DNA of 21,082 nucleotides from an uncultured Clostridia bacterium. GTDB taxonomy: Bacteria > Bacillota > Clostridia > Peptostreptococcales > Anaerovoracaceae. Positions 8,650 to 19,339 of the stretch are shown here, piece by piece. The position numbers were made by a program, and so were the translations under genes. Numbering within the stretch: position 1 is the stretch's first letter; the number at the start of each line of letters is the position of its first letter. The stretch spans positions 1 through 21,082 of the forward strand of contig CAKQUI010000026.1 in assembly GCA_934277495.1 (NCBI GenBank). The letters are read 5' to 3'. Under the pieces are notes generated by a model. It saw only the letters and a program-made list of their open reading frames with translations. It made no database searches and had not been told where the DNA came from.

Positions 8650-9564
8650 CTACAGCTTCTCTACCTTGTCTGCTGCTTCATCCAGCCAGTGTCCTTCGTA
8701 GAGCTCGATCATACCTCTGTCGCATGACGCTGCCAGTCTCGGATCTATCGGGAGCCTTCCCAGCACGTCTACGCCGTATGTCTTTGCGACTTCTTCCAGC
8801 TTGCTCTCGCCGAATACAGGATATTCCCTGCCACAGTCGGGACATTTGAAGTATGACATATTCTCCACCAGACCCAGTACCGGGATATTCATCATCTCTG
8901 CCATCTTCACTGCCTTGCCTACTATCATGGAAACCAGTTCCTGTGGCGACGTCACTACTATGATACCGTCAACAGGAAGTGACTGGAACACTGTAAGAGG
9001 TACGTCGCCTGTTCCCGGCGGCATATCCACGAACATGTAGTCCACATCTCCCCAGAGCACATCAGTCCAGAACTGCTTGACTGTGCCTGCGATCACCGGG
9101 CCTCTCCAGACTACAGGATCTGTGTCGTTTTCCAGCAGGTTGTTCACAGACATAGTGCAGATGCCTGACTTGGTCTTTACAGGGAATATACCCAGCTCGC
9201 TGGCTGTAGCCTTCTCTCTGGTGCCGAAAGCCTTAGGTATGGACGGTCCTGTGATGTCGGCGTCCAGGATAGCTGTCTTGTATCCTTTTCTCTGCATGTT
9301 CACTGCCATCAGCGATGTCACCAGTGATTTACCGACTCCGCCCTTGCCGCTGACGATACCTATCACTTTCTTTATATCATTGAAGCTGTTTGTCTCCTCC
9401 AGGAAGCTCTGTGGCTGGCTGCCGCAGTTTCCTGCACTCGGACAGCTGCTGCAGTCCGATGAACAGCCTTCTTCAGCCGGCTGCTGCGGTGCTGCTGAAG
9501 CACATCCTTCGCATGAAGCCTCTCCGCATGAAACGTCTCCGCATACCTTTTCTTTATCGTCCAT
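8650..9564 (-). CDS. mrp: Mrp/NBP35-type P-loop ATPase, Fe-S cluster carrier
   Basis: 304 residues. The ATG at 9564 follows GAGGA at normal spacing; a longer frame starting at a TTG (9594) would read through that ribosome binding site. The protein belongs to the Mrp/ApbC/NBP35 family, which binds an Fe-S cluster between two subunits and passes it to target proteins in the cytoplasm. The deviant Walker A GKGGVGKS is at 73-80, DADITGPS at 101-108, and FVDMPPGTGD at 178-187. The conserved CPDC pair (C241, C244) is the bridging cluster site. The first 50 residues are rich in Cys (C8, C13, C18, C21, C34, C38, C41, C47), more than the N-terminal ferredoxin-like motif of NBP35. It has its own promoter and terminator. 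A housekeeping role for the many Fe-S enzymes nearby is likely. Confidence 0.93.
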   Translation of the reverse strand: MDDKEKVCGDVSCGEASCEGCASAAPQQPAEEGCSSDCSSCPSAGNCGSQPQSFLEETNSFNDIKKVIGIVSGKGGVGKSLVTSLMAVNMQRKGYKTAILDADITGPSIPKAFGTREKATASELGIFPVKTKSGICTMSVNNLLENDTDPVVWRGPVIAGTVKQFWTDVLWGDVDYMFVDMPPGTGDVPLTVFQSLPVDGIIVVTSPQELVSMIVGKAVKMAEMMNIPVLGLVENMSYFKCPDCGREYPVFGESKLEEVAKTYGVDVLGRLPIDPRLAASCDRGMIELYEGHWLDEAADKVEKL

Positions 9565-9619
9565 GATTATTTCCTCTCTTGCTTGTTGATGCAACTTTAT
9601 TTTTTATCATATATACATT

Positions 9620-9674: not shown

Positions 9675-10967
9675 TCAGATGAGTTTTTCATGATATATGC
9701 CCTCAAGGTCGTATCGTCTTATGCGTGTTCGTATCTCCTCCCGGTCTGTGGTGTAAAGCCCCTTGTCTTTCATCCGCTGGAAATATTCTGCTCCTGCAAA
9801 GGTATACCTTGTCATCAATCCGTCTGCTGTCTTCATACGCTCCGATGCAAAGGCTATGAGATCCCCCGCTGCAAGGCCTGCCGGCAGCTGCAGCAGCTTC
9901 ATGCCCTTGAGGTATCTCACTGCATTGTGACCGGCAAGGCTTCCTGTGGTTATAGCCTCCGTGTGACCTACGAAAAGTCCGGACTTTTCACCGCCGCAGA
10001 AGAGATTGGCTGTACCCTTGACTCTCATGTCGTTATCACGCTCCGTCACGGAAAGATACCTGACGGAGTTTCCTTTACCGCCTGCATAGGGGTCTGCATA
10101 TCTGGCGTTTTCGAATCCCGGTATCCGCCGCAGAGTCTCAAGGTCGAAAAACGGCGTCATTATCTTTGCATAGCCTGTATCCAGCAGGATTATGTTCTCC
10201 GCATATTCATCCAGAGCATACTGCCTGCATACTTTGAGATCCAGCTTTTCTTTTTTTATGAACTCCTCCGGCAGAGGCACTACAGCCACGCCTTTCTCGT
10301 TGAGTTCGTGCTGCAGCTCTACCGAAAGCGACTGTTTCTCCAGCTTGCCGCTGCCGCTGAAAGCGCCGTATGAGCCGTCGCTGCGCCGCCCCATGATGTC
10401 GTGGACTCCGGCTTTTTCGCTGATACTGACTCTCGGTCCGAAAGCAGGACATCTCAGGATACACATACAGCAGCCGTTGCCATATGTAAGACAGTTGCCC
10501 ATAGGACCGGTGCTTCCTGCCGTGTCGATGAAAACGTCGCCTTCTATCTCCTCTCCGTCAGCCAGCAGGACTTTTTTTATCTCTGTCCTGTCTCCGTTTC
10601 TGTCCGTCACCACATCCACAGCTCTGGACATCAGCCGTATCTCTACGCCCTTGCTTTTCAGCAGCTGTCTCACTTCCGGCTCCACTTTCATCACATCGTA
10701 AAGGCTGGCGTGCTCATGTCCCGGAAAGTCGAGACCTGTATGACGTGAGCATCTGTCGGTTATTTCGAAAAGTTCATCAGCTCCCAAAGCGATGTTCTCC
10801 TCCGCTGCTGTGAACCTGCCGTTGTTCCTCATGATACCGCCCACATTGCCGAGACCCAGCAGCAGATCTGTCTTTTCCAGCAGCACCACATCGGCGCCTG
10901 CGTTCCTTGCAGTGACTGCGGCTGCGCATCCTGCCCAGCCGCCCCCTGCTATTACCACTTTATACAA
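9675..10967 (-). CDS. FAD-dependent oxidoreductase (GidA/TrmFO-like fold, FAD_oxidored family)
   Basis: 430 residues. The start is a TTG (10967) 7 bases after AGGAGGG; no ATG lies near, and the FAD fold begins at once (VVIAGGGWAG, 4-13; acidic LLEK at the end of strand two). NVGGIMRNNGR follows at about 41-51, and the C-terminal FAD motif LFCGGEKSGLFVGHTEA includes GSLAGHNAV (about 355-363), as in GidA/TrmFO-like flavoproteins. A CCMCILRCP run near the middle could hold a cofactor or disulfide. It is not TrmFO itself: the tRNA-binding parts are not recognisable. It follows the PyrK-like gene and is the last gene of the flavin electron-transfer cluster, so it probably acts as a cytosolic dehydrogenase feeding or drawing electrons with that partner. 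The substrate is unknown. The start is covered by a strong hairpin (see 10968-11018). Confidence 0.8.
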   Translation of the reverse strand: MYKVVIAGGGWAGCAAAVTARNAGADVVLLEKTDLLLGLGNVGGIMRNNGRFTAAEENIALGADELFEITDRCSRHTGLDFPGHEHASLYDVMKVEPEVRQLLKSKGVEIRLMSRAVDVVTDRNGDRTEIKKVLLADGEEIEGDVFIDTAGSTGPMGNCLTYGNGCCMCILRCPAFGPRVSISEKAGVHDIMGRRSDGSYGAFSGSGKLEKQSLSVELQHELNEKGVAVVPLPEEFIKKEKLDLKVCRQYALDEYAENIILLDTGYAKIMTPFFDLETLRRIPGFENARYADPYAGGKGNSVRYLSVTERDNDMRVKGTANLFCGGEKSGLFVGHTEAITTGSLAGHNAVRYLKGMKLLQLPAGLAAGDLIAFASERMKTADGLMTRYTFAGAEYFQRMKDKGLYTTDREEIRTRIRRYDLEGIYHEKLI

Positions 10968-11191: not shown

Positions 11192-12199
11192 TCACAGCGG
11201 CATATCCATGGCTGCACATTTGCACATTTTGCAGACTCTGCCGCTGCTGTCTGTATGGCAGCATGCTCCGCATATGCCTTCACCGCAGCACATATTGAAA
11301 TTATTGCTGTATGCGAGCTTTTCCTCCGGTATTCTCAGCACCTTCGCCAGGTGCCTGATATAGTAGTCCGAGGTCAGGAGTATGATCCTGCTGTATGCGC
11401 TTTCGTCGCACCACGCCGGATATGGCATTTCTGCAAGGCTGATGTATCTCAGTTTGCCTTTTTCACCGTACTTTTCTATCTCAGGTTCGAGATAGTCACG
11501 GATGATGTCCGTGCCGACTTTCTCAGGGTCTGCTGCTATCTCGATATCTTTCCTGCCTTCTGCGCACCTCAGTATGTTCACAGCCGGTGCGAATCCTACG
11601 CCTTTTGTTATTATGAGCCACCGGTCTGAGTCACTTTCGCCGCTTGCTGAAACTGCCGGTGATGCTGAGCCTATACCGGTCCTGCACACAGCTTCCGCAC
11701 CTTTGCCTGCCAGACCGCTCCTGTAAACGCCACGGATCACAAGTTTTTCTTCTGCCTCTGCTATCAGCTTGGTCTTACCGGATATGACTTTCAGAGCCAG
11801 ATATATCTCTCCGCTGCTGACGTCTGCCTTCATCACAGACAGCGGTACATTGTAAAAAGCTTCGCTGCCGGATCTGTTCACAAAGACGAAAGCCCCCGGC
11901 TGAGATGCTTTCATGGCGAAGCCTTTATCCGTCTGCAGCACCAGGACCAGCAGATCGTCTCCGTATTTTATCTTCCTGACGATCCTGACGCTCATGTCTT
12001 TGCGCCGGTCGGTTATCCTGCTGCCGTTCTGGATATATTCGTTGTATATGCATACACCTGCCCAGCTGCAGTCGCATCTGTCCCTGCCGGAAAGCCTGCT
12101 GCAGACAAGGCAGTCGCCTGTCTCCGCCAGCGGACACGGACAGTTCACAGTACCTGCATCTGTACATACAGTCCCTTTCAGCGACCTGTTCAATGTCAT
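11192..12199 (-). CDS. PyrK-like FAD/NAD(P)-binding electron-transfer protein with C-terminal [2Fe-2S] site and N-terminal Cys-rich domain
   Basis: 335 residues. The core (about 68-300) resembles ferredoxin reductase-type PyrK and sulfide/dihydroorotate dehydrogenase-like proteins: an FAD barrel with YNVPLSVM (116-123), an NAD part with ITKGVGFAPAVNIL (197-210), and LLTSDYY (274-280). The C terminus has the PyrK-type [2Fe-2S] ligands in CCGEGICGACC and CKMCKC (C305, C310, C313, C323/C326). Unlike classical PyrK (about 250 residues) it has an extra N-terminal segment with C20, C22, C30, C33, C42, C44 and C50 (pattern CPCPLAETGDC...DCSWAGVC), probably another metal site. No pyrD lies nearby, so a role in pyrimidine synthesis is unlikely. 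It sits between the NapH-like protein and the FAD dehydrogenase, which suggests that it links NAD(P)H to the membrane. The ATG at 12199 follows GAGAGG by 12 bases, a loose spacing; the Cys-rich start supports it. Confidence 0.82.
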   Translation of the reverse strand: MTLNRSLKGTVCTDAGTVNCPCPLAETGDCLVCSRLSGRDRCDCSWAGVCIYNEYIQNGSRITDRRKDMSVRIVRKIKYGDDLLVLVLQTDKGFAMKASQPGAFVFVNRSGSEAFYNVPLSVMKADVSSGEIYLALKVISGKTKLIAEAEEKLVIRGVYRSGLAGKGAEAVCRTGIGSASPAVSASGESDSDRWLIITKGVGFAPAVNILRCAEGRKDIEIAADPEKVGTDIIRDYLEPEIEKYGEKGKLRYISLAEMPYPAWCDESAYSRIILLTSDYYIRHLAKVLRIPEEKLAYSNNFNMCCGEGICGACCHTDSSGRVCKMCKCAAMDMPL

Positions 12200-12298: not shown

Positions 12299-13135
12299 CT
12301 ACATCCACGGATAGCATATGGCGAAAAGCACAGCAGCCTTTACTATCGTCAGTATTATCTCGCTGCCTTTGAACCTGCGGTTTTCACCGATGCCGATATT
12401 GCCTTTTGGACATGTGTCTGCACATGCACCGCACTGGAAACAGTCTCCGGAAAATCCGTCTATGTCAAGGGACGCCGGACAGCAGCGCCTGCATGCACTG
12501 CAGCCTTTGACGCAGTTTTCGCTGTCTTTATTCACGATGGAGACCGGTATCACAGGCATCATTGCGAACACCGCACCCATAGGACAGAGGAACTGGCAGA
12601 AAAATCTCGGCACTATGCACATGCCGATGATGATGGCTCCCAGCACACAGGCTGCCGCTGCGTGTCCCGAAAGAGAAAAGCTGCCTGATGTGAATGAAGC
12701 GAACAGCTCCCACGGATCCGCCATGCTGACCTTTGCATACCAGCCGAAAAAGCAGAGAACGAGTATCGCCGCCAGCACTGCATATTTGACATACTGCAGT
12801 TTATGCAGGACGCCGTCGGTCACCCTGAGGACCTTGCCCCGGATCTTCTTCTGCAGGAAGGATGATATTCCGTATACTGCATCTCCCAGCGTACCGAAAG
12901 CGCAGGCGTATCCGCAGAAGAAACGCCCCGCCAGTACAGTGTACGCCAGCAGTATCAGCAGTATGCTGACGAATGATGTCACTTCTATGAGCTTCATATC
13001 GTGTATCTGCGTTATAAGATAGCGCACTCCGGAGAATGCTGCTGAGAAAAGTCCCGGCGCCATGATGAAGAATATCAGCTGTATCGCTGCCCTCACCAGC
13101 CTGTTGCGTTTCTTTTTGTTTTTCAGGAATTTCAT
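12299..13135 (-). CDS. NapH/NosR-like polytopic membrane protein with two [4Fe-4S] sites
   Basis: 278 residues; the ATG at 13135 overlaps the stop of the gene before it by 4 bases, after AGGTGG. About five to six membrane spans are visible (15-40, 52-70, 118-134, 162-180, 188-202, 262-275). Two loop motifs, FFCGYACAFG (72-81) and FFCQFLCPMG (178-187), are typical of Fer4_5/NapH-type quinol or flavin electron-transfer proteins. Two ferredoxin-like sites follow: C208, C212, C215, C219 and C232, C235, C238, C242. In related systems such a protein passes electrons across the membrane to flavinylated domains outside. Its translation is coupled to the anchored FMN_bind protein, which is its likely direct partner. 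The 99 bases after it contain a GGATC/GATCC hairpin and AT-rich sequence but no clear promoter. Confidence 0.87.
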   Translation of the reverse strand: MKFLKNKKKRNRLVRAAIQLIFFIMAPGLFSAAFSGVRYLITQIHDMKLIEVTSFVSILLILLAYTVLAGRFFCGYACAFGTLGDAVYGISSFLQKKIRGKVLRVTDGVLHKLQYVKYAVLAAILVLCFFGWYAKVSMADPWELFASFTSGSFSLSGHAAAACVLGAIIIGMCIVPRFFCQFLCPMGAVFAMMPVIPVSIVNKDSENCVKGCSACRRCCPASLDIDGFSGDCFQCGACADTCPKGNIGIGENRRFKGSEIILTIVKAAVLFAICYPWM

Positions 13136-13581
13136 TCAGCGCCACCTGCCTTTCCCAGAGCTTCTTTAGCAGCTCCTATGATGCCGTTGGAGGTGTATGT
13201 GGCTCCCGACACTACGTCCACATCGCTGCTCTGTTCTGTGATGATACTGTCAAGTACGTCTATCGCCATATTGTAGTATGCAGCATCCTCGCCGTCTGCT
13301 GACACCACCTGTATGTCGGAGATATATCCGTCTTCGATGGTGACTTCCACAGTCACAGTGCCGCCGAACCCCTGAGCGCTGCCCTGATATGTACCGTCTT
13401 TGTATTTTCCGCCTGCCTGGGAGGAAGATGTCTGTGAGCCTCCCGCAGAAAGGCTGGCGATGGTCTCGTTGGCCTTGGTCAGCTGCTGGTTCATCCCCAG
13501 CATCTGGTTGTAGTAAAGCAGCGCCAGCACTATCACGATGATGTTCACTGCCCGTATATACAGACTTTTTCTATTCTGCAT
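13132..13581 (-). CDS. Membrane-anchored FMN_bind protein, covalent FMN carrier
   Basis: 149 residues; ATG at 13581, 8 bases after AGGAGG. It overlaps the preceding gene by 11 bases and the next by 4. One N-terminal membrane span (about 9-28) is followed by a short coiled stretch (LTKANETIASLSA), a Ser/Gln-rich linker and one FMN_bind domain (about 59-145). The domain begins KDGTYQGSAQGFGG and holds VVSGATYTSNG (123-133), in which T128 of SGAT is the expected site where ApbE attaches FMN by a phosphoester bond. It resembles the RnfG/NqrC core in miniature. With the NapH-like protein it should form the membrane step that moves electrons to the outer, multi-domain flavoprotein. Confidence 0.9.
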   Translation of the reverse strand: MQNRKSLYIRAVNIIVIVLALLYYNQMLGMNQQLTKANETIASLSAGGSQTSSSQAGGKYKDGTYQGSAQGFGGTVTVEVTIEDGYISDIQVVSADGEDAAYYNMAIDVLDSIITEQSSDVDVVSGATYTSNGIIGAAKEALGKAGGAE

Positions 13582-14191
13582 CGGAAGTTCCTCCTGTATC
13601 GCTGCCGCTCTCTGATGTATCCGGCTTCAGAGCTTTGTCCAGAGCTTTCTTTACAGAATCCAGTATGCCGTTGGAGCTGTATGTAGCTCCGGTCACTGCA
13701 TCCACTCCGTCAGTCGTCTGCTTCGCTATTATCTTGTCTATGAGCTTTTTGGCCATGGAGATATATGGCTCGTCGTCCTGAGTCCTGGTCACGTCTATAG
13801 ATTTGATCCTGCTGCTTTCTATCAGCACGGAAACATACATGAATCCTTTGTATCCTCTTGCAAAACCTTCATATGTGCCATCCACGTAAAGGCCCTCTGC
13901 CGGTGTATCCGGCTCATCCGGCGTGTCTGGTGTATCAGGTTTGTCCGGAGTGTCTGGATTCTGCGGGTCGTCTGCATCAGACTTCACTACAGCCTTCTTC
14001 AGTGCGTTTTCCACAGCTTCTATGATGCCGTTGGAACTGTACGTTGCCCCGCTCACTGCGTCTACTTTCGTATTCTGAGCGCTGAGTATCCTTGCTATGA
14101 CGCCCTTTGATGCCTTGTCAAGATACGGTTTGTCGTCTCCTTCATTGTTTATCACCGATATCTTCGTTATCTTGCCGCCGCTTATGATCAC
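13571..14191 (-). CDS. FMN_bind domains 2 and 3 of the multi-flavin protein (3' part, shifted frame)
   Basis: This frame is open from 14332 down to the TAG at 13571. The only usual start codon is a GTG at 14191, which has no ribosome binding site and falls inside an FMN_bind domain. The domain really begins upstream (DGSKFRDGVYTGTGTGFNG, about 14265-14209). The segment therefore looks like the continuation of the gene at 14200-14835. It holds two FMN_bind domains, each with a flavin site (DAVSGATYSSNG and DAVTGATYSSNG), joined by a Pro/Asp-rich linker of about 30 residues with repeated DTPD/DKPD units (residues about 76-95 from 14191), and a Gly/Ser-rich end. Read as one chain with the 5' part, the product would be a secreted protein with three covalent FMN groups. 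Confidence 0.75.
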   Translation of the reverse strand: MIISGGKITKISVINNEGDDKPYLDKASKGVIARILSAQNTKVDAVSGATYSSNGIIEAVENALKKAVVKSDADDPQNPDTPDKPDTPDTPDEPDTPAEGLYVDGTYEGFARGYKGFMYVSVLIESSRIKSIDVTRTQDDEPYISMAKKLIDKIIAKQTTDGVDAVTGATYSSNGILDSVKKALDKALKPDTSESGSDTGGTSDAE

Positions 14192-14199
14192 GCTGACAG

Positions 14200-14835
14200 T
14201 TATCTTGCCGTTGAAGCCTGTACCTGTGCCTGTATATACGCCGTCCCTGAACTTGCTGCCGTCAAGAGACGTATCGTGTTTATGCGATGATGGCTTTTTC
14301 TTTTTCGTGCTGCTCTTTTGTCCTTCACGGATCTACCTGACGCCTTGGCTATGGCGTTCTCCACGGCTTTGATGATGCCGTTGGAGCTGTATGTGGCTCC
14401 GCTCACTGCATCAACGCTGATGCTCTGGGTACGCAGCATGGCAGATATGACGCCTTTTTTCGCCTTTGCAACATACGGCGCATCATCGGCCTCCACCTCC
14501 ACCACGTCTATGGAGATCATCTTGTGATCTTTGATAACGACCTTTACTTTGATGTTGCCGGCGTAGCCTCTGGCACTGCCGTAGTATGTACCGTCGGCAC
14601 ATTTGGAAAGATCTCCCTTTGCCTTGTACGGGCTTGTGCTTTTCTTGCTGCTTGCCGTCTTCTTCTGTTTTTTCACGGATGTTTTTTTGGTAGGTTGTTT
14701 AGTTACTGCTGCTGATGCATCGTTCCCTGCCGCCAGGGCCTCGGGTGCCGGGAATCCTGTACTCAGTGTGAAAACCACTGCTGCTATTATCAGCAGCGAC
14801 GGTATCATGCAGTGCAGTCCGCTCTTTCCTTTCAT
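14200..14835 (-). CDS. Secreted FMN_bind protein, domain 1 (5' part; frame ends early)
   Basis: 211 residues; the ATG at 14835 is 8 bases after AGGAGG, and earlier starts up to 14916 lack this signal. A signal peptide (1-35, likely cut near ALA|A) is followed by a Lys-rich linker (46-72) and one FMN_bind domain (about 75-166) with DAVSGATYSSNG (142-153); T148 is the expected FMN site. After residue about 173 the frame turns into a basic, unrelated tail ending at 14200, while the -1 frame carries on with FMN_bind domains 2 and 3. The switch lies in an A-rich stretch (see 14296-14332). It belongs to the apbE-led flavin operon and should act as the outer electron wire beyond the cell membrane. 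Confidence 0.85.
   Translation of the reverse strand: MKGKSGLHCMIPSLLIIAAVVFTLSTGFPAPEALAAGNDASAAVTKQPTKKTSVKKQKKTASSKKSTSPYKAKGDLSKCADGTYYGSARGYAGNIKVKVVIKDHKMISIDVVEVEADDAPYVAKAKKGVISAMLRTQSISVDAVSGATYSSNGIIKAVENAIAKASGRSVKDKRAARKRKSHHRINTIRLLTAASSGTAYIQAQVQASTAR
14296..14332 (-). other. One-base frame break in the multi-FMN_bind gene
   Basis: The frame must change by -1 between about 14332 (a TAG in the second frame) and the start of domain 2. On the minus strand the stretch reads GACAAAAGAGC followed by A5-G-A5-G. One extra A in the A4 run (14316-14319) would restore a single frame with a Lys/Ser-rich linker like the others in this protein. A lost base, a sequencing or assembly error, or slippage on the A5 runs would all fit. 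Confidence 0.8.
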
Positions 14836-14886
14836 GAAAATATCCTCCTGGTATAGTCTGATATGACTTGTTTCTTTACGGCAGAA

Positions 14887-14917
14887 ATTGCTGTGCCCCG
14901 AAAACAGGCACAGCAAT
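14887..14917 (-). terminator. Strong hairpin between the Tp47-like gene and the FMN_bind gene
   Basis: A perfect 11-bp stem, ATTGCTGTGCC with GGCACAGCAAT, and a 9-base loop. Only TTTCT follows on the minus strand, so it is at best a partial terminator or an mRNA-end protector. A second small hairpin, CCGGC-ACCA-GCCGG (14937-14950), sits just after the stop at 14963. Both could lower expression of the downstream electron carriers relative to the surface protein. Confidence 0.55.
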
Positions 14918-14962: not shown

Positions 14963-17002
14963 TTATTTTACTTTTACAGTCACTGTCTTTGAAACTCCGT
15001 TAGCTGAAACGGTGATCTTTGCAGTTCCTTTTTTCACGCCTTTGACAATGCCCTTTGAAGTCACTGTTGCGATCTTCTTGCTGCTTGTCTTGTATGACAC
15101 TTTTGCTGAAGGTGTTGCTGATGCTTTGACAGTTATCTTCTTGCCTTTCTTCACAGTGTATTTTGTCTTGCTTACCTTGATAGTCGGATCTTTTACTGTG
15201 ATAGTGCTCTTTGCAGTTATTCCGTTGGCAGTGGCTGTTATAGTCACTTTGCCTGCCTTCTTAGCTGTTACGACGCCCTTTGAGCTTACTGTCGCAACCT
15301 TGGTGTTGGAAGATTTCCATGTAACCTTGCTGTTCGGACCTGCTACATTGGCTTTCAGTGTCACTGTTCTGTACTTCGATGCAGGTTTCTTTGCATAGAC
15401 AGTAGCTGATTTCTTGCTCAGGCTGATAGTCGGTGCGTTCTTCTGATAAGTGAACGGCATGCTGAACTCGCTGAATCCTTTAGCTGCTACGCTGAGGCTG
15501 TACTGTGTGCCAGCTTCAAGACCTGTCACTTTTGTCAGATCGTATACACCTGTCTTGCTGTTTGCGAGAGTTGCCACATCTACTTTGTTTCTTTCTGCAT
15601 CTGTTGTCGTGATCTTCACTACTGTTTCAGAGTCAGCCAGAGCTGCCTTGAACTTGTCTGTGAGACCTGAAAGAGTCAGCTTTTCTCCGTAAGGTGATAC
15701 ATCAACGCCTGTCAGGAATACAGTTGCTTCAACATCATTGAATCCTGCAGCTTTGTAGATGACTTTCCAGTATCCCAGCTTGTCTGCTGATGCACCTTTG
15801 TTGTAAACACCGTCTACTGTAGTGTCTGAACCTGTTCCGCCAAGTCTAAGGGAGTCAAGGTTGAATCCTGCGTCTATCCTCACGCCGTGGTTCGATGACC
15901 ACCATGTGTCGGCAGCATTCTTAGTACCGTATACCGCCTTAGGCTGAGCTGTCTTGTCAGCATCAGGGTCTGTTGATCCATAGTACTGATATTCTGCAGT
16001 CAGATATCTTGATGCATACGCTGAGAAGTCTGTCTTGCTCATTTCTGAACCGTCAGCCTTCTTCAGATAAACATAAGCGTCTGCATAATCTCCGAATTTA
16101 GTGTTGTATTCGTATGTCACATGATCTACGGCAACATCGAAACCTGCTTCTGATTTGCCGTCTGATGCTGGACCGTATGTGCCGTCGGCTTCCAGCTTCT
16201 TGATGCCGCCTGTAGCTGCAGTGACTTCATTGCCTGCGCCGTCTTTGCCGCCGATCTTCACGTTGCTGAATGCTTTTGTTTCGTCAGTGCCCTTGCCTGT
16301 TTCGTTCAGGATCACTGCCTTTGCATAGTCCTGGCTGTTCACTGAAACAGGTATCCTCTGGAAGCCTGAAACGCTGTAGTTTTCTATAGTGTACTGTACA
16401 CCGTCGACTGTGAATGTCTTGCCCATATCAGGGACAAGGACAGCTCCCGGTGTGCCGTCTGCTCTTGTCACTCCGCTAAGCTTTGGTGTAGTGAAGTCCG
16501 GATCGATCTCCACCATAGCACTTGCTGCAGCTCCTGAGTCTGCAACGCCGTTTACTTTAGTCAGGAACTGGAATCCGTGTCTGAATATGCCGTGTTTCAC
16601 TGTCGCTCTTGAAACTGCATCGAAAGCGCCAAGGTCATCGGTCTTTTCCTGGTCCTGTGTAGTACCTTTGGCTTCTGTCTTTGTAGCCTTTTCGATGTCC
16701 TCGCCTTCCCAGTACTCCAGATATGACATGGATGCTGAACCGTAAAGTTCAGTGCCCTTGTCTGTCGTGTAGTACTTCACGCCTGTGTTTCCGATCTCTG
16801 TCGGTGTAACAGTCTTGCCGTCTGCAGTATATGTGTCTGCTGACTTGTCAGTGTAGTAGTATGTGATGCCGTCTTTGACATCGAGCTTAGTCATGGCTGC
16901 GCTGCCGCTGTCTGCATATACGCCTGCCGGTATGCAGGTCACCAGCATTGCTGCTCCTACTGCAAGAGAAGCAGCTCTGTTTCTGAGTTTTGATTTGATC
17001 AT
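14963..17002 (-). CDS. Secreted Tp47-like protein with two C-terminal Ig-like Big2 domains
   Basis: 679 residues; ATG at 17002, 11 bases after AAGGAGG. A signal peptide (1-30, likely cut at VYA|D) is present; LVTC at 20-23 is only a weak lipobox. Residues about 84-520 resemble Treponema pallidum Tp47 (TP0574): compare SMSYLEYWEG (91-100), GAFDAVSRATVKHGIFRHGF (125-144), LKKADGSEMS (313-322) and YGTKNAADTWW (358-368). The last 155 residues are two Big2 domains (about 525-604 and 605-679; TWKSSNTKVATVSSKGVVTA, SYKTSSKKIATVTSKGIVKG), very Lys-rich, typical of surface proteins. Tp47 is described as an unusual penicillin-binding protein, but the SVTK, TEN and KTG motifs proposed for it are not kept at the matching places here. 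It lies between apbE and the FMN_bind genes, so a part in extracellular flavin or electron handling is more likely here than cell-wall work. That role is inferred. Confidence 0.82.
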   Translation of the reverse strand: MIKSKLRNRAASLAVGAAMLVTCIPAGVYADSGSAAMTKLDVKDGITYYYTDKSADTYTADGKTVTPTEIGNTGVKYYTTDKGTELYGSASMSYLEYWEGEDIEKATKTEAKGTTQDQEKTDDLGAFDAVSRATVKHGIFRHGFQFLTKVNGVADSGAAASAMVEIDPDFTTPKLSGVTRADGTPGAVLVPDMGKTFTVDGVQYTIENYSVSGFQRIPVSVNSQDYAKAVILNETGKGTDETKAFSNVKIGGKDGAGNEVTAATGGIKKLEADGTYGPASDGKSEAGFDVAVDHVTYEYNTKFGDYADAYVYLKKADGSEMSKTDFSAYASRYLTAEYQYYGSTDPDADKTAQPKAVYGTKNAADTWWSSNHGVRIDAGFNLDSLRLGGTGSDTTVDGVYNKGASADKLGYWKVIYKAAGFNDVEATVFLTGVDVSPYGEKLTLSGLTDKFKAALADSETVVKITTTDAERNKVDVATLANSKTGVYDLTKVTGLEAGTQYSLSVAAKGFSEFSMPFTYQKNAPTISLSKKSATVYAKKPASKYRTVTLKANVAGPNSKVTWKSSNTKVATVSSKGVVTAKKAGKVTITATANGITAKSTITVKDPTIKVSKTKYTVKKGKKITVKASATPSAKVSYKTSSKKIATVTSKGIVKGVKKGTAKITVSANGVSKTVTVKVK

Positions 17003-17064
17003 GCTTTCGGGGTCCTCCTTCTCGACTCATCATCAATGATCATTAACGTATGATATATAGTGAC

Positions 17065-17087
17065 TTTCCCATGCCCTGTATGGGAAA
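17065..17087 (-). repeat. Inverted repeat between apbE and the Tp47-like gene
   Basis: TTTCCCAT and ATGGGAAA form a perfect 8-bp stem with a 7-base loop, 10 bases after the stop of apbE. No T-tract follows on the minus strand. It is probably an mRNA processing or stability hairpin rather than a terminator, so the two genes are likely co-transcribed. The 10-bp palindrome AATGATCATT (17035-17044) lies between it and the next ribosome binding site. Confidence 0.5.
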
Positions 17088-17097
17088 ATGACTATGC

Positions 17098-18141
17098 TTA
17101 TTCAACGACGGTGTATCCGTCCTTTGTCAGCGTGAATATGTTTTTTGCTTTTTTGTTCATATATACATTCTTATCTGAATCTGCAAACACTGCTGCTGCG
17201 TCGTATTTTTCTGCCAGCTCCATGCCTTTGTCTTTTCCCAGTACGAAACATGCTGTTGCCAGCATATCGCTGACTATGCCGCTGTCGCACACGACTGTCA
17301 CTGAGATGAGACCGCTTTCCGCCGGATAGCCTGTCTTCGGATCTATGATATGGTGGTATCTTACGCCGTCTTTCATGAAATATTTCTCGTAATCTCCCGA
17401 TGTTGAAATGTACGACTCGCCTTCCACTGCAACGGTGCCCAGATAGTCGCCGTCGTCCCTTGGATCCGTGACTGCCACGTTCCATGATGATCCGTCAGGC
17501 TTGCTGCCATATGTCATTATGCTGCTGCCGCCGATGGTTATGACTGCACCGGTGACGCTGCCGTCTTTGTCGAACATGTCCTTTATGCGGTCACATCCCA
17601 GGCCTTTGCCTGCTGCGCCAAGATCCAGCGACGTGTCTTCATTCAGTCTGACGCTGTTGCCGCTGAGCTTCACTTTCTCATATCCCGTGTCTTTGAGCAG
17701 AGCCTTTATTTTGCTTTCCTCCGGCATCTTCGGCGTTTCTCCGTCAAAGCCCCAGAGCCTTGTTATCTTTCCTATGGTGGGATCGAAAGCCCCGCCGCTG
17801 TCCTTTGCCATCTTCAGCACGCTGTCAAGATAGACTGCGGTATCGTCTGACACCTTCACAGATTTCTTGCCGGCTGATGCGTTTATCTCAGCGATCTCGG
17901 AACCTGATTTCCTCCAGGATATCAGCCTGTCTTCTGTATCGGAAAGTTCCTTTTCCACATCTTCTGTGATATCGTCTCCGGTTTTGTAAACAGTCTCACT
18001 GAGCACTGTGCCCATAACAAAGCCTGTGTAGTCGTACTGCTCCACGCTGCCGCTGCCTGTGCTGCCGCAGCCTGTGAATATTACCGCTGCAGCTGCTATC
18101 ATCACAGCTATAGCGACTGTACTGAAACATATCTTTCTCAC
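17098..18141 (-). CDS. apbE: ApbE-family FAD:protein FMN transferase, lipoprotein
   Basis: 347 residues. The start is a GTG (18141) 5 bases after AAGGAGGT. A lipoprotein signal (FTGC, with C25 as the lipidated residue) places it on the outer face of the membrane. ApbE cleaves FAD and attaches FMN to Thr of S/T-G-A-T motifs in FMN_bind domains, with Mg2+. Family signatures are all present: FVMGTVLSETVY (41-52), GGAFDPTIG (116-124), DLGAAGKG (173-180), GGSSIMTYG (204-212), STSGDYEKYF (246-255), HHIIDPKTGYP (263-273) and SDMLATA (291-297). It leads a run of genes with four FMN_bind domains, its likely substrates. It is the first gene after the promoter at 18332-18360 and has a long leader with a T-tailed hairpin and two dyad boxes, so expression of the whole cluster is probably regulated here. 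Confidence 0.94.
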   Translation of the reverse strand: MRKICFSTVAIAVMIAAAAVIFTGCGSTGSGSVEQYDYTGFVMGTVLSETVYKTGDDITEDVEKELSDTEDRLISWRKSGSEIAEINASAGKKSVKVSDDTAVYLDSVLKMAKDSGGAFDPTIGKITRLWGFDGETPKMPEESKIKALLKDTGYEKVKLSGNSVRLNEDTSLDLGAAGKGLGCDRIKDMFDKDGSVTGAVITIGGSSIMTYGSKPDGSSWNVAVTDPRDDGDYLGTVAVEGESYISTSGDYEKYFMKDGVRYHHIIDPKTGYPAESGLISVTVVCDSGIVSDMLATACFVLGKDKGMELAEKYDAAAVFADSDKNVYMNKKAKNIFTLTKDGYTVVE

Positions 18142-18538: not shown

Positions 18539-19339
18539 TCAGACATCCTGAAATATATTGGCTGACCCGAAGGACTGACAGTGTTCGATACCTTCCTTCG
18601 ATACCGAGCTGCTGCCGTAGCGCCTGCGGTCCTCTCCCACCGGGCATACCGCTGTGCATACGCCGCAGGGGTATCTGAATTCATTCTTAAGCTGCTGATG
18701 GTATTCTGCACATTTGAACTTATCCATCTCAAGACAGCTTTTCTCAGTGTCCGACACATCTCCGAAAGCCTGCATCGGGCACTTTTTCCTGCAGAGTCCG
18801 CAGTGTATGCAAAGTTCCTCGCTTATGACCGGATCTGCTGTTATCTCTGCATCGGTGATGACTGAAACGATACGCACACGTGGTCCGAACTCTTTTGTTA
18901 TCAGCGTGTGGTTCCACCCTATGGTGCCCAGTCCTGCATACTTTGCAGCCAGCACATGGGAAAACGCAGCTTCCGGCTTTTTCACCAGCACCGATATGTC
19001 TCCGTAGCAGTCCCTTGGGAAAAAGTGCGCCCTGTAGCCCTGCCTGTTCAGAAAGGCTGCCAGCCTGTACGCCGCTTCATCCAGCAGTCTGTTGGTAGTA
19101 TTGTAAAGTTCCGAGTACACCACCGACGGCGTGGTCTCTATCATGGAAGGGAAGATCTGCACTCCAATGGATATCACTGTCCTGCACCAGGGCCATATGT
19201 TCCCCGGTCTGAAGGCTTCCGGCGTCTCGCCGTACTCGTCCCATCTTTCTGCCGGAGCGAAACCCGTTATATCCGCTCCAAGTTTCGCAGCCTCACGTTT
19301 TATCCTGCGCTTGAATTCAGCTTTTTTCTGTGCATCCAT
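18539..19339 (-). CDS. QueG-like epoxyqueuosine reductase homologue with two [4Fe-4S] sites
   Basis: 266 residues; ATG at 19339 after GAGGGA, 22 bases downstream of the PLP lyase gene. The N-terminal half is a corrinoid reductase-like domain with AGLGTIGWNHTLITKEFGPR (135-154) and VISVITD-type signature (VSVITD, 158-163), as in QueG and reductive dehalogenase-like proteins. Ferredoxin ligands are C177, C180, C183, C187 and C210/C225, C228, C232. QueG proper reduces epoxyqueuosine in tRNA using cobalamin and is usually 310-380 residues. This protein lacks the C-terminal extension and sits in an amino-acid catabolism operon, so it may be one of the many QueG-like paralogues of unknown substrate. 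Call it a 4Fe-4S double-cluster reductase with moderate certainty. Confidence 0.82.
   Translation of the reverse strand: MDAQKKAEFKRRIKREAAKLGADITGFAPAERWDEYGETPEAFRPGNIWPWCRTVISIGVQIFPSMIETTPSVVYSELYNTTNRLLDEAAYRLAAFLNRQGYRAHFFPRDCYGDISVLVKKPEAAFSHVLAAKYAGLGTIGWNHTLITKEFGPRVRIVSVITDAEITADPVISEELCIHCGLCRKKCPMQAFGDVSDTEKSCLEMDKFKCAEYHQQLKNEFRYPCGVCTAVCPVGEDRRRYGSSSVSKEGIEHCQSFGSANIFQDV

Follow-up and report, generated by a model that had tools for sequence, protein, structure and literature searches.

The window analysed here, the whole 21,082-nucleotide stretch of contig CAKQUI010000026.1 from an uncultured Clostridia bacterium (probably a gut anaerobe), carried a flavin electron-transfer gene cluster that includes the gene of a 679-residue secreted protein resembling Tp47 (TP0574), the 47-kDa antigen of Treponema pallidum. 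On the minus strand, the order of transcription was apbE, the gene of the secreted protein, FMN_bind (flavin mononucleotide, FMN) sequences at 14916-13132, a NapH-like gene and two flavin adenine dinucleotide (FAD) genes (Table 1). The Tp47-type gene thus lies between apbE and FMN_bind genes, as a preliminary description made from the sequence alone had it. The tight spacing from apbE to the NapH-like gene fits a single operon. The flavinylation motif of ApbE is given as D-x-x-[ST]-G-A-[ST] in the available part of PMC12052999, and all four FMN_bind sites of the window (DAVSGAT, DAVSGAT, DAVTGAT and DVVSGAT) matched it. Judged from sequence, the window holds a NapH-type flavin electron-transfer operon with a Tp47-family protein as its predicted surface component.

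Table 1. Features of the window, with examples of the sister domain from other loci in the last line (NAD, nicotinamide adenine dinucleotide)
Feature	Position	Strand	Evidence and remarks
apbE, FMN transferase	17098..18141	-	PF02424 3.7e-82; 'aaggagg' 5' of start; N-terminal export/lipoprotein-like signal by eye
Tp47-family secreted protein, 679 residues	14963..17002	-	signal peptide by eye; Tp47 fold at residues 84-520; C-terminal Big domains
DAVSRAT heptapeptide, residues 128-134 of the Tp47-type protein	16601..16621	-	conserved; differs from the ApbE flavinylation motif by one residue
C-terminal Big_2 (526-603) and Big-like (634-679) domains of the Tp47-type protein	14966..15427	-	domain scan; possible wall or matrix anchor
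FMN_bind gene, one complete domain, DAVSGAT	14200..14916	-	PF04205 1.3e-13; frame breaks before the end, next domain continues in the 13571-14191 frame
FMN_bind sequence in next frame, DAVSGAT and DAVTGAT	13571..14191	-	PF04205 1.7e-27, 2 stretches; probably remainder of the 14200-14916 gene
Single FMN_bind protein, DVVSGAT	13132..13581	-	PF04205 2e-14; N-terminal hydrophobic anchor by eye
NapH-like membrane 4Fe-4S protein	12299..13135	-	PF12801 1.4e-11; NapH/MauN 1.9e-17, under NCBIfam cut-off; proposed transmembrane electron donor
FAD/NAD-binding protein resembling PRK05802	11192..12199	-	4.5e-71, under NCBIfam cut-off; possible cytosolic electron input
FAD-dependent oxidoreductase	9675..10967	-	PF01134 1.5e-33, PF12831 1.5e-14
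Sister-domain examples	L011, L014, L016, L022, L042, L049 and others; P0055 232-556 and 1115-1445		

The secreted protein is a Tp47 homologue. Its Domain A (PF14889) scored 65.1 bits against a cut-off of 25, and Domain C (PF14888) reached 26.9 bits (cut-off 25) when residues 240-450 were scanned alone, going unreported in whole-protein scans. The predicted model of the protein showed a strong structural match to Tp47 and had the overall Tp47 fold; the preliminary description had called the protein a Tp47 homologue and had named a missing structural match as evidence against this. Invariant residues of the Tp47 core include W98, D117, D123, D128, R132, T134, K268 and D365. The motifs SVTK, TEN and KTG, which we take to be the penicillin-binding motifs of Tp47, were absent from the window protein, as had been remarked earlier, and from its relative P0094. 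A plasmid search with P0094 gave no match.

Sequence patterns specific to Tp47 gathered 55 loci from a species-genome collection, with flanks of up to 10 kb per side that were in many cases cut by contig ends. The family profile recovered Tp47 in 55/55 of these loci; phmmer with the window protein alone did so in 31/55. FMN_bind, counted with a purpose-built hidden Markov model run on the loci, was present in 49/55 (fusions included), a NapH-like gene in 44/55 and ApbE in 41/55; grouped by organism label (n=40), the counts were 37, 32 and 34, respectively. The six loci without FMN_bind comprised three of Anaerostipes (L003, L004 and L009), two short or partial stretches (L035 and L054) and one with NapH at the contig edge (L029). 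The two FAD genes downstream in the window (11192..12199 and 9675..10967) were dropped as core partners, being found in 0/55 loci by phmmer at 1e-5. An Mrp/NUBPL-like iron-sulphur NTPase gene lies near the cluster in the window (8650-9594) and in a related locus (L077:13785-14798); phmmer at 1e-5 found an Mrp-like gene in 0/55 loci, and it occurred once among six later loci.

Whole-genome surveys took in 50 of the 55 loci. Both FMN_bind (from the best matches listed) and ApbE were held somewhere in 50/50 Tp47 genomes, with a mean of 1.56 apbE per genome (78 matches, three partial-gene pieces excluded). In 38/50 genomes the Tp47 gene had an apbE within 15 kb; 5 of the 12 others were Faecalibacterium, in which FMN_bind and NapH-like genes adjoined Tp47 and apbE was elsewhere. 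For comparison, Big_2 surface genes were queried in 44 of the 50 genomes, and among the 150 matches listed, which came from 27 genomes, apbE lay within 15 kb of only 2/93 such genes. The Fisher p of 1e-21 for this difference is optimistic because the genomes are related, but the size of the difference stands. Both control genes near apbE (G005 and G043) share contigs with Tp47 clusters and lie beside them. A Pfam search of sampled groups found Tp47 in 1/299, 6/296 and 14/299 genomes (centres included; 1, 5 and 13 above the Pfam cut-off), a rarity which shows that the linkage to FMN_bind is not explained by both being ubiquitous. Eight new genomes were used for replication, with wider flanks for six: FMN_bind was found in 5/6, and ApbE and NapH as well in 4/6. 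The replication locus without any partner (L078) was cut by a contig end, and one of the five with FMN_bind (L080) fell short of the Pfam cut-off and was closer to the sister domain described below than to Tp47 proper. An excess of apbE and FMN_bind neighbours, the lack of which the preliminary description would have taken as refuting its reading, is thus borne out across the family, and the linkage is real and likely to be meaningful.

Clusters of NusG_II and Hpre_diP_synt_I (heptaprenyl diphosphate synthase component I), named by scanned representatives, also occurred near Tp47 and apbE, in 22/55 and 21/55 loci (for example, L007:3808-4188 and L020:16495-16989). These neighbours may point to a quinone step.

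Tp47 and FMN_bind were joined in one chain in 14/55 loci (14/57 Tp47 open reading frames, ORFs, there), which is good evidence of a shared task. Among proteins with a Tp47 profile match the fusion was seen in 49/109, a low count, since our own FMN_bind profile missed at least P0098, which was scored by Pfam. Many of the 49 fused proteins are closely related, and the locus count of 14 is the fairer figure. The family profile runs into a downstream FIVAR-like region, and short extra pieces there were not taken as Tp47 domains. The strict D-x-x-[ST]-G-A-[ST] motif was kept in 39/49 fused proteins; two others read DTVGGAT and eight had no such motif.

Tp47 was linked to two kinds of membrane module. 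In five loci without NapH (L001, L002, L012, L030 and L033), a multi-span membrane protein bearing FMN_bind at its C-terminus was present; in L001 (Sarcina), Tp47, this membrane protein and ApbE stand in a row. Four of the five proteins were scanned against NCBIfam and gave weak matches to the C-terminal part of MamZ (E 8e-6 to 3e-8), far under the curated cut-offs, and one of the four also matched MsrQ at 2.5e-7, again far under the curated cut-off. A Pfam scan of the multi-span proteins gave no match for the membrane domain. They are probably MsrQ-like, to judge from these weak matches. Among the five uncharacterised membrane classes listed by Meheust et al. 2021 (PMC8238504) are NapH-like and MsrQ-like systems. 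The occurrence of Tp47 with either module suggests that Tp47 is the constant outside part.

We put at roughly 0.7 the probability that the Tp47 family supplies the extracytosolic, acceptor-side module in flavin electron-transfer chains. The preliminary description had suggested that the native work of the family may lie in periplasmic or surface flavin electron transfer, and gene context argues for this at the level of the family. In the proposed chain, a cytosolic reductant would feed the FAD proteins in the window organism, and these would pass electrons to the membrane NapH-like 4Fe-4S protein. Electrons would then cross the membrane and be carried outward by FMN_bind domains loaded with covalent FMN by ApbE, until they reached the extramembrane Tp47-type protein, which its Big domains may anchor in the wall. 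The Tp47 domain would dock the flavin domains and present or reduce a terminal acceptor, or would position the chain in the wall. Carried over to Treponema, this would give Tp47 a native role in periplasmic flavin electron transfer rather than in cell-wall synthesis. The direction of electron flow, the direct contact, the acceptor, the anchoring and the extension to Treponema are the parts that we infer.

Several observations weigh against this proposal. In the three Anaerostipes loci the Tp47 genes stood alone, with no FMN_bind or ApbE match in the flanks, and both were present elsewhere in those genomes, which makes these loci a natural test of uncoupling. Locus L041 had FMN_bind and ApbE with neither membrane module. 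The named loci were mostly Bacillota and Coriobacteriia, many of them related, and the counts are not independent. The flavinylation motif was not strict in 10/49 fused proteins, in which flavinylation may be lost. The Tp47 domain itself is without DxxSGAT and is therefore not predicted to carry a covalent cofactor, and for Treponema the arrangement is taken from published locus tags.

A possible, if doubtful, alternative is that these proteins are wall-anchored scaffolds or adhesins, which only position the flavin chain on the cell surface or bind a target such as haem and take no part in electron transfer. The C-terminal Big domains of the window protein are in keeping with such a role, as are the FIVAR, SLH, dockerin or Shr-like HID domains borne by relatives. 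However, the many invariant residues in the Tp47 core suggest a ligand or active site, and it is this core, not any one anchor type, that stays with FMN_bind.

Further alternatives turn on one site in the Tp47 domain. A profile stripped of the motif columns gave 170 Tp47 matches, of which 167 carried D-x-V-[STA]-R-[AP]-T; the remaining three began past the site. D, V, R and T were invariant in 167/167 readable domains. Three divergent relatives outside the 170 (L077, L078 and L079) read FDTVTRST or FDAVSRST, that is, R-S-T for R-A-T. In the other ORFs of the loci, DxV[ST]xAT occurred in only 2/1240, a control redrawn because FMN_bind ORFs had contaminated the earlier one (55/549). One such alternative would make the Tp47 domain a non-canonical substrate of ApbE, a redox domain with FMN on the invariant Thr (Thr134 in the window protein), and this conservation speaks for it. 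In addition, hhalign of Tp47 Domain A against FMN_bind singled out exactly this stretch, a match of the 12 motif columns only (p 0.0021), which was reached by 0/24 control profiles, some of them antisense frames. However, the similarity was gone once the motif was masked (p 0.47). The site in the predicted model of the window protein is a loop preceding a short helix, unlike the strand-turn-helix of the FMN_bind motif site. The ApbE motif was also not found in the Tp47 domain, Arg replacing its Gly in 167/167, and according to a review (PMC12052999) a change of that Gly to Ala alone about halves flavinylation. We therefore regard flavinylation of the Tp47 domain itself as quite unlikely.

Homology of Domain A to FMN_bind was kept as unproven, the profile match being the motif alone. 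An FMN_bind structure was absent from the best 50 structural matches (VIA-align), a result of little weight because, after the Tp47 row, the C-terminal FnIII-like domain fills the list. The motif site of the Tp47 domain may hold a flavin phosphate or a partner, may once have been flavinylated, or may resemble the ApbE motif by coincidence. A bolder proposal, which we consider rather unlikely, is that Tp47 and its relatives form a new extracytosolic redox module whose Gly-to-Arg site binds FMN, is covalently loaded with it or holds the FMN phosphate of a partner; if this were true, a main antigen of syphilis would belong to flavin electron transfer, and its name as a penicillin-binding protein would be mistaken.

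Some fused FMN_bind copies read DAVSSAT or DAVSRAT, showing that replacement of the Gly occurs in FMN_bind domains too. FMN_bind sequences with Ser, Arg or Thr for this Gly, in the same chain as Tp47 or adjoining it, were noted in P0061, P0063, P0067, P0069, P0085, P0088 and P0101 and at L011:4693-6579. Many Tp47-type proteins held a further domain with D-x-[VF]-[ST]-[ST]-A-T-x-N-K, covered by no Pfam model among the proteins scanned. Comparison by hhalign showed this sister domain to be a Tp47 homologue (probability 95.6, E 1e-8), and it was present in 31/55 loci and 51/109 proteins, a few of the matches being short or partial.

It is very improbable that Tp47 proteins are cell-wall enzymes (penicillin-binding carboxypeptidases or weak beta-lactamases) with unrelated flavin neighbours: the title of the 2002 Tp47 structure paper speaks of a novel penicillin-binding protein, but the motifs named above are missing from the window protein and P0094, and the gene families recurring beside Tp47 are mostly redox.

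Other features of the window concern its FMN_bind genes and upstream flank. A frame change near an A-rich run, at about 14200-14412, splits an apparent three-domain FMN_bind gene into two ORFs, and the N-terminal part of the middle domain lies ahead of the start listed for the second ORF and shares that ORF's frame. Sequencing error, decay and frameshifting are all possible causes of the break. In related locus L005, two FMN_bind domains share one ORF; L025 also has two overlapping FMN_bind frames, the first with an odd tail. A double 4Fe-4S ferredoxin-region protein lies upstream of apbE on the same strand (18539-19339).

Tp47 is a standard syphilis antigen, its role for the bacterium is unsettled, and the name of its family rests on a penicillin reaction. 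In the available parts of two papers it is treated as a penicillin-binding protein with very low beta-lactamase activity (PMC6351036) and as an immune-active antigen (PMC12417408). The preliminary description had stated that an FMN_bind-type lipoprotein gene, TP0572, lies near TP0574; in the accessible text of the papers, TP0572 does carry an FMN-binding annotation, as a putative membrane protein, and its locus tag is two away from that of TP0574. A gene order like that of L001 is thus possible in T. pallidum. No Treponema was among the 55 loci, and the first search pattern would miss Tp47 itself (stretch GMFDAV). A literature search for TP0572-TP0574 together found nothing. T. pallidum has a periplasmic flavin-trafficking protein of the ApbE family (PMC4767422, available part), and a flavin role for Tp47 fits what is known there. 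Searches of open-licence PMC papers, most of them on neighbouring questions, found no link between Tp47 and flavin, and the listed papers naming both leave them unlinked. The words Tp47, penicillin-binding and Treponema were absent from the accessible main text of PMC8238504 and of its 2024 follow-up (PMC11334425). In gut bacteria, including many culturable commensals, the strong linkage and direct fusion of Tp47 to components of flavin electron transfer give a concrete, testable function.

Compared with T. pallidum Tp47, the window protein shares PF14889 and PF14888. It differs in having an extra N-terminal region (34-83) and C-terminal Big domains, in having no lipobox by eye and in the absence of the presumed penicillin-binding motifs; its gene directly adjoins apbE and FMN_bind genes. 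Meheust et al. described, in the available part of PMC8238504, clusters of NapH-like flavinylation and multi-flavinylated proteins, some with large unannotated proteins bearing SLH, FIVAR and other wall-type domains. The window shares ApbE, FMN_bind proteins and the NapH-like Fer4_5 membrane protein with these clusters; its surface component is identified here as a Tp47 fold, whereas the main text there, in its accessible part, mentions neither Tp47 nor penicillin-binding domains. The identification thereby names at least some of those large wall proteins. With PplA of the flavin-based extracellular electron transfer of Listeria, the common element is an extramembrane FMN_bind protein loaded by ApbE. 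However, scores on the PplA model were weak, far under the cut-off, and the Tp47 loci have a NapH-like or probably MsrQ-like membrane donor together with the Tp47 domain.

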